Position numbers and translations under genes: made by a program. This document shows, piece by piece, positions 34,439 to 35,529 of a stretch of 36,006 nt of DNA (positions are counted from its first letter, which is position 1; each line of letters begins with the position of its first letter). Under the pieces are notes generated by a model that worked only from the letters and a program-made list of their open reading frames with translations, searched no databases and had not been told where the DNA came from. The DNA lies in the NCBI GenBank assembly GCA_025358205.1, contig JANYKG010000003.1, positions 1-36,006 on the forward strand, written 5' to 3'. Source of the DNA: Armatimonadota bacterium. Lineage in GTDB: Bacteria; Armatimonadota; UBA5829; DTJY01.

Positions 34439-34573
34439 CTGCCGCACCTTTTGCCATGGTTGCGCCGTTGGATAGGTGAGATGCGGATGAGGTCTGCATT
34501 GGGGTCAGCAGGAATGAACTGCCTGGGTTCGGTGGTCGAAATCAAAATTTGTATCCTCAAGGACACATGGCCC

Positions 34574-34638
34574 GCATTATTCATGAATAACGTGGATAAT
34601 GCTCTGAAAGCCCTGGATTATTCTCTTCATGAGTAATC
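34574..34638 (+). repeat. double-hairpin repeat, copy 5 (after tRNA-Thr)
   Basis: GCATTATTCA / TGGATAATGC (one G-T wobble), linker TCTGAAAGCC, then GATTATTC / GAGTAATC with one mismatch. It lies about 10 nt beyond the 3' end of tRNA-Thr, so it would be transcribed as the tail of the tRNA transcript. Confidence 0.8.
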
Positions 34639-34798: not shown

Positions 34799-34843
34799 AG
34801 TGCAAAGAGCAAATCGGTGGCCGGTGTCTTTGTACTCTGTACT
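34799..34843 (+). repeat. tRNA-spacer hairpin repeat, copy 1
   Basis: AGTGCAAAGA / TCTTTGTACT arms (one wobble) around 18 nt, followed by CTGTACT. It sits between tRNA-Phe and tRNA-Thr and matches the repeats in the other two tRNA spacers. Confidence 0.7.
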
Positions 34844-34848
34844 GTTTT

Positions 34849-34924
34849 TGGTGCCGGGACCCAGAGTTGAACTGGGGACACGTGGATTTTCAGTCCACTG
34901 CTCTACCAGCTGAGCTATCCCGGC
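34849..34924 (-). tRNA. tRNA-Phe (GAA)
   Basis: Cloverleaf on the minus strand: acceptor GCCGGGA / TCCCGGC, D arm GCTC...GAGC, anticodon loop CTGAAAA with GAA, T loop GTTCAAC, discriminator A and encoded CCA. Confidence 0.95.
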
Positions 34925-34934
34925 ACGGCTCTGC

Positions 34935-34987
34935 CCTGCACGATGCAGGACTCTCTGAGCATTATTCACATTCTGCGTGAATAATGC
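34935..34987 (-). repeat. double-hairpin repeat, copy 6
   Basis: On the minus strand: GCATTATTCAC / GTGAATAATGC (11 bp, 7-nt loop), linker TCAGAGAGT, then CCTGCA / TGCAGG (6 bp, 3-nt loop). It lies between tRNA-Asp and tRNA-Phe, 11 nt from the 5' end of tRNA-Phe. Confidence 0.85.
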
Positions 34988-35016
34988 GGACCAGAGTACG
35001 AAATACGTAAGAATAA

Positions 35017-35056
35017 AGTACAAAGAACCGCGCTGGTTGTCTTTGTACTATGTACT
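35017..35056 (+). repeat. tRNA-spacer hairpin repeat, copy 2
   Basis: Perfect 10-bp arms AGTACAAAGA / TCTTTGTACT around 13 nt, then ATGTACT. Located between tRNA-Asp and tRNA-Phe. Confidence 0.75.
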
Positions 35057-35059
35057 CAC

Positions 35060-35189
35060 AGTCTATGTACTTAAGAATCTGGCGGGGATGACGGGACTTG
35101 AACCCGCGGCCTCCTACGTGACAGGCAGGCGCTCTAAACCGACTGAGCTACACCCCCGCGGGTGCGGATAGTACGATAGTACATAGACT
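35060..35189. repeat. 12-bp inverted repeat bracketing tRNA-Asp
   Basis: AGTCTATGTACT at 35060-35071 and its exact reverse complement AGTACATAGACT at 35178-35189 flank the tRNA-Asp gene. In the precursor transcript these arms could pair and present the tRNA in a closed stem. Confidence 0.7.
35080..35157 (-). tRNA. tRNA-Asp (GTC)
   Basis: Minus-strand cloverleaf: acceptor GGGGGTG / CATCCCC with one G-U pair, D arm GCTC...GAGC with a slightly long D loop, anticodon stem CCTGC / GTAGG around CTGTCAC (anticodon GTC), T loop TTCAAGT, discriminator G and encoded CCA. Confidence 0.93.
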
Positions 35190-35191
35190 TT

Positions 35192-35252
35192 CAGTACAAA
35201 GATACGGACTTCCCGTTCTTCTTTGTACTTTGTATTTCCTATCTTTGTACTG
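35192..35252 (+). repeat. tRNA-spacer hairpin repeat, copy 3 (nested)
   Basis: CAGTACAAAGATA at 35192-35204 can pair perfectly (13 bp) with TATCTTTGTACTG at 35240-35252, or its 10-base core with TCTTTGTACT at 35220-35229. Two alternative right arms make it a possible switch or a duplicated arm. It lies between tRNA-Val and tRNA-Asp. Confidence 0.75.
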
Positions 35253-35265
35253 CTCTGTACTGTCC

Positions 35266-35341
35266 TGGTGGGCGAAGAGGGACTCGAACCCCCGACATCT
35301 TCCTTGTAAGGGAAGCGCTCTCCCAACTGAGCTATTCGCCC
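35266..35341 (-). tRNA. tRNA-Val (TAC)
   Basis: Minus-strand cloverleaf: acceptor GGGCGAA / TTCGCCC, D arm GCTC...GAGC, anticodon loop CTTACAA with TAC, T loop TTCGAGT, discriminator A, encoded CCA. It is the first gene after the cluster promoter. Confidence 0.95.
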
Positions 35342-35410: not shown

Positions 35411-35494
35411 GCAAAAAACAGGCGTCTCCACCTGTCTTTGTGTACTCCTTCGAAAACGCCAAGCATTTTCGTTCCCAGTACCGGCAAGTCAACG
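35411..35494 (-). ncRNA. candidate small RNA (promoter + hairpin + terminator)
   Basis: A near-consensus promoter at 35501-35529 and the terminator at 35413-35435 delimit a transcript of about 80 nt. Before the terminator it holds a second stem, CGAAAATGC / GCGTTTTCG (9 bp with one wobble, loop TTG), followed by single-stranded AAGGAGTACACAAAG. This stretch contains a ribosome-binding-site-like motif and a variant of the tRNA-spacer half-repeat. I know no family that matches. A 30-codon ORF overlaps it, but its ATG would lie upstream of the expected start site. Confidence 0.45.
35413..35435 (-). terminator. intrinsic terminator with GAGA tetraloop
   Basis: On the minus strand ACAGGTG-GAGA-CGCCTGT forms a 7-bp stem (one T-G pair) closed by a GNRA-type loop and is followed at once by TTTTTT. 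It lies between two promoters and would end any transcript from the upstream one just before the tRNA promoter. Confidence 0.8.
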
Positions 35495-35500
35495 GGCATC

Positions 35501-35529
35501 AGTATACCATCGGCATACCGGACTGTCAA
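35501..35529 (-). promoter_or_regulatory. near-consensus promoter upstream of the terminator
   Basis: Minus strand TTGACA (35524-35529), 17-nt spacer, TATACT (35501-35506). The bases around the -35 (TTTTGCTTGACAG-CCG) resemble those of the tRNA promoter about 120 bases away, suggesting duplication. Confidence 0.7.

Follow-up and report, generated by a model that had tools for sequence, protein, structure and literature searches.

On the minus strand of the window, by which we mean the whole stretch of 36,006 nt that was analysed (contig JANYKG010000003.1, positions 1 to 36,006, of the Armatimonadota assembly GCA_025358205.1), four tRNA genes form a cluster headed by tRNA-Val and are preceded by two promoters, P1 and P2, with an intrinsic terminator between them (Table 1). 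A preliminary description had marked the block from P1 to the terminator as a candidate small RNA (sRNA) gene, and its near-consensus P1, its terminator with a GAGA loop and T6, and the 9-bp stem between the two were all confirmed; the terminator sequence occurs only once on its strand in the genome. P2 begins 1–2 nt past the T-run, equals P1 in quality and is followed by tRNA-Val 40 nt further on. The regions of P1 and P2 agree in 74% of positions over a length of 35 nt, and the P1 spacer is similar to that of the tRNA-Asn promoter (L003) of the same genome. The region folds at −31 kcal/mol (z = −2.6 against shuffles), and the predicted fold of the RNA is stable, with two hairpins. The AAGGAG that had been described as exposed is so for its first four nucleotides (AAGG unpaired with P of at least 0.97), but the AG that follows is predicted to be largely paired (unpaired P about 0.25).

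Table 1. Features of the tRNA-Val locus, in positions of the window.
Feature	Position	Strand	Basis
P1, sigma70-type TTGACA-17-TATACT, extended -10 (TGG before -10)	35529-35501	minus	sequence; 11/12 consensus matches
Predicted RNA, P1 to end of T-run, ~83 nt	about 35494-35412	minus	ends predicted from sequence and folds
9-bp stem CGAAAATGC-TTG-GCGTTTTCG, then AAGGAG	35473-35445	minus	sequence, fold
3' module of dispersed element: TGGGAACG, 9-bp hairpin, GAAGGAG	35445-35482	minus	genome copies, R1 match
Intrinsic terminator ACAGGTG-GAGA-CGCCTGT-T6	about 35435-35412	minus	sequence; stem kept in relatives
P2, TTGACA-17-TATACT, direct promoter of the tRNA cluster	35410-35382	minus	sequence
tRNA-Val (TAC), first gene of the cluster	35266-35341	minus	
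tRNA-Asp	35157-35080	minus	
tRNA-Phe	34924-34849	minus	
tRNA-Thr	34724-34649	minus	

About 360 nt upstream of P1, where the contig ends, the minus strand (36006–35890) encodes what by eye resembles the C-terminal end of an IS3-family transposase. A repeat resembling CCGCATTATTCATGAATAACGTGGATAATGC, the second in this genome to be described here, forms a 51-nt inverted repeat around tRNA-Phe (34568–34618 and 34943–34993) and is found elsewhere in the genome (L048, L072, L092), once within a copy of the Shine-Dalgarno (SD) element treated below. Stretches of the TCTTTGTACTnTGTACT type recur, in either orientation, in the tRNA spacers (34825–35260).

The 4.08-Mb draft genome contains the strict promoter pattern TTGACA-N17-TATA(A/C)T at 47 places, against 0 for a reversed control, and at least 8 of the 47 stand directly before tRNA genes. 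An intrinsic terminator within 150 nt was present behind a single one of the 46 promoters tested, P1, while mononucleotide shuffles of the 46 gave an expectation of 0.2 for the whole set, and the proposed block of promoter, short RNA and terminator is supported in this respect. As is typical of sRNA genes, the unit has a promoter of its own (near consensus, with an extended -10, and kept in relatives) and its own intrinsic terminator at short distance. Two other strong promoters of the genome (L097 and L113, on contigs C122 and C192 of G000) are followed by similar non-coding stretches of the form AAGCAGT..GAncGGCC..AnTCnCAGT, which are possibly paralogous RNAs.

The search of related genomes for the block upstream of tRNA-Val was successful. 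The same order of P1, short RNA, terminator, P2 and tRNA-Val occurs in eight further genomes of this class of Armatimonadota, spread over four families: G002, G003 and G004 in the same family, G017 and G024 in f4, G018 in f5, and G016 and G022 in f3. These are draft genomes in which the boundaries of the unit were drawn by eye, and the RNAs predicted from their sequences measure 55–85 nt. P1 is recognisable in 9 of 9 genomes and near consensus in 8, the exception being G016 with a weaker -35 box (TTGATG); P2 is weak in G018. The distance from the end of the terminator to the -35 box of P2 is 0–3 nt in five of the nine genomes. Two further genomes, G023 and G010, have P1 and P2 without the terminator, and the unit was not seen upstream of tRNA-Val in G001, G006, G008, G012, G014, G019 and the f2 genomes examined. 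The unit is therefore dispensable, since several members of the class are without it at this position.

A class-wide scan for the terminator motif gave one copy at tRNA-Val in each of six genomes and four matches elsewhere; the match of G001 away from tRNA-Val was read and is no such unit. With a strict pattern of terminator plus P2, run on 291 genomes of the phylum, tRNA-Val matches were confined to this class among the loci read. Additional pattern matches in G002 and G004 were traced, from the one G004 locus read, to CCTGTTTTT repeats that precede promoters and have no hairpin, and the one locus read for the additional G026 match lacks such a unit. In a wider collection, the matches listed for terminator plus P2 were mostly from Clostridia, and alone among them L119 (JAUSEB010000164.1, an Armatimonadota bacterium, matching contig C138 of G024 in length and coordinates) has both P1 and tRNA-Val; L163 was set aside as T-box-leader-like by eye. 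In G004 (L294, 1490–1700) tandem copies of ACCTAGTAAnAATACCTGTTTTT, a possible regulator site, lie about 145 nt apart and shortly upstream of near-consensus promoters, and a similar pair is present in G002.

The elements, their order, their recurrence and the terminator stem are read from the sequence, and the stem varies in a manner that keeps its pairing: pair 1 is A-U, G-U or G-C, pair 3 A-U or G-U, pair 6 U-A or U-G, and pair 7 G-C or G-U. Between G024 and G017, which belong to two genera, the terminator is 88% and the RNA body 68% identical, while the P1 spacer agrees in 4 of 17 positions and the upstream DNA in 45%. The RNA bodies are related within families only (89% identity between G002 and G004) and none is conserved between families. 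Most units fold with a small hairpin before the terminator, and its sequence and geometry differ between families. The expectation that both stems would be conserved thus held for the terminator, whereas the upstream stem has unrelated counterparts in the relatives, in sequence and in geometry alike. At gathering score Rfam recognised only the four tRNAs in the window, and down to E = 10 nothing within the unit, with one chance match outside it; on the relatives' loci it returned only tRNAs, plus a group II intron elsewhere. A literature search for Armatimonadota sRNAs or SD-targeting repeats returned nothing. Because the unit recurs in eight other genomes with a terminator stem kept through base changes, the cassette from P1 to the terminator probably yields a discrete RNA of about 80 nt, and an sRNA gene at this locus is plausible.

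The upstream stem and its AAGGAG have a different background. By mismatch search AAATGCnnnGCATTTnCnnAGGAG is found at 14 places in the genome, against 0 in the control, and 12 of the 13 other copies lie 6–10 nt before the start codon of a frame of at least 120 codons, the remaining one preceding a frame of 33 codons. The genes behind the copies, named by eye from their translations, include fliW, flgG-like, NADH dehydrogenase-like and beta-lactamase-like genes and others. Most such copies are about 90 nt long and have a large hairpin ahead of the small one. A covariance model of the element (R1) matched 15–19 times in G000, 15–20 in G022, 12 in G008, 3 in G006 and 2–3 in G026, and in none of the other 286 of the 291 phylum genomes under stricter filters, which lose weak matches. 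Both sides change in 16 of 23 pairs, with 96% of cells paired, and slid controls are near zero, so the element constitutes a structured family; it had no match in Rfam. Downstream of full-length copies, at a distance of 2–15 nt, a frame of 50 codons or more begins in 23 of 32 cases, versus 4 in a mirror control.

The copy in the window (R1 match at 35445–35508, E = 5.5e-5) is the 3' module only, without the large 5' hairpin of the element. It has no start codon at 6–10 nt, and the only GTG stands 13 nt on, inside the terminator. A small open reading frame or coding leader was rejected: no ATG follows AAGGAG, and the GTG frame runs through P2 and the tRNA. On comparison with the relatives' units, which are without it, the stem with GAAGGAG is a local passenger in the unit of this genome, outside the conserved design. 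The suggestion that AAGGAG pairs with anti-SD-like sequences is accordingly not supported, because the SD belongs to a local insertion, a copy of the dispersed element that at its other sites provides the SD of coding genes.

The element is apparently mobile and REP-like, as suggested by one empty site, an AGG boundary and its patchy distribution. Its copies are dispersed, structured and non-coding, as those of REPs are, and they likewise have a fixed short target and, from one site, an empty counterpart in relatives. One copy in G026 occupies the space between rplX and rplE (genes named by eye; ..GTTAGG/TATCG...TTTTCA/AGGGAG), and at the same rplX-rplE position, the one site examined, the sister species G006 and G008 have the empty ..GTTAGGGAGTAACTTATG. 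Most copies follow (A)GG. Y1_Tnp genes occur in G000 and in those g6 genomes that carry the element, but genomes lacking it have them as well. We infer that the element survives mainly at the AGG of SD sequences, because it leaves the SD intact.

For the unit as a whole we lean slightly towards a real P1 and a discrete terminated RNA, with the cassette serving the tRNA-Val operon in cis, as a tandem-promoter leader. P1 would drive an RNA of about 80 nt whose intrinsic terminator is set right against the -35 box of P2; most P1 transcripts would stop there and leave P2 in charge, read-through from P1 would add tRNA precursor, and the short RNA would be mainly a by-product, possibly with an extra activity in trans. 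Transcription, RNA size and mechanism are inferred here, and the cis mechanism is the least certain step. A role in cis is favoured because the unit was seen only with tRNA-Val and the terminator abuts the P2 -35 box in more than half of the genomes, and because the RNA body drifts and two genomes keep P1 without a terminator. From these two, G023 and G010, it follows that P1 can feed the tRNA directly. The order of promoter, terminator and gene would equally be expected if an ordinary sRNA gene lay by chance ahead of the operon. An independent sRNA acting in trans by base-pairing with mRNAs, encoded beside the tRNA operon, is possible though rather doubtful: it would account for the strong promoter, the separate terminator and the stable two-hairpin fold, for an RNA body that G024 and G017 share more closely than the flanking DNA, and for small hairpins that differ between G002 and G004 by compatible changes, but no seed or loop sequence is shared across families, the patterns used located the unit nowhere but at tRNA-Val, and it is lost in sister species.

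The similarity of the P1 and P2 regions would be expected if P1 were a functionless, decayed duplicate of P2 and the terminator an insulator that only blocks upstream read-through. We regard this as unlikely, as no evident source of read-through into the cluster lies upstream in the window and P1 is recognisable in all nine genomes although its spacer diverges, which suggests selection on P1. Alternatively, the RNA could act through its SD-like segment as a decoy, either of ribosomes or of some factor recognising the hairpin-SD element in mRNAs. About a dozen other genes of this genome have the same hairpin and AGGAG ahead of their start codons and AAGG is predicted to be unpaired, but the relatives' orthologous units all lack the segment, it resembles a fragment of a mobile repeat, the AG of its SD is mostly paired and no such factor is known, all of which makes this proposal improbable. 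More improbable still is a combination of these ideas, namely that the class governs its tRNA-Val operon by attenuation, through a terminated leader RNA between tandem promoters, which in this genome has captured a mobile SD-bearing element, so that the RNA could titrate ribosomes or a shared factor.

If transcribed, the cassette preferred here as a leader acting in cis would be a previously unlisted small RNA unit, held at one locus across several families in a phylum that has hardly been studied, and with it one could test whether a terminated leader can govern tRNA operons. The finding of the dispersed SD element may matter more than the sRNA unit: a covarying element at SD sequences implies that a mobile sequence can insert before many genes while supplying the ribosome-binding site. 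The closest known repeats are REPs, non-autonomous palindromic repeats related to IS200-IS605 (PMC2817692, on REPs and their associated tyrosine transposases). The hairpin with AAGGAG resembles them as a short, dispersed, oriented and non-coding hairpin beside a fixed motif (AGG), and Y1 transposases exist in the source genome. It differs from REPs as described there in that its copies lie mostly at SD sequences and number tens rather than hundreds, and that no transposase is known to be linked to the element here. The likeness concerns only the hairpin and AAGGAG piece and not the unit of P1 and terminator.

That unit is like sRNA genes with their own sigma70 promoter and intrinsic terminator in specifying a predicted short structured RNA that ends in a GC stem and T-run. 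It differs from typical intergenic sRNA genes in that its body is not conserved between families and in its strict link to the tRNA-Val promoter. The rrn operons of E. coli have tandem P1-P2 promoters before stable RNA genes, and the locus shares with this type two near-consensus promoters in such a position, with the difference that here an intrinsic terminator lies between P1 and P2.
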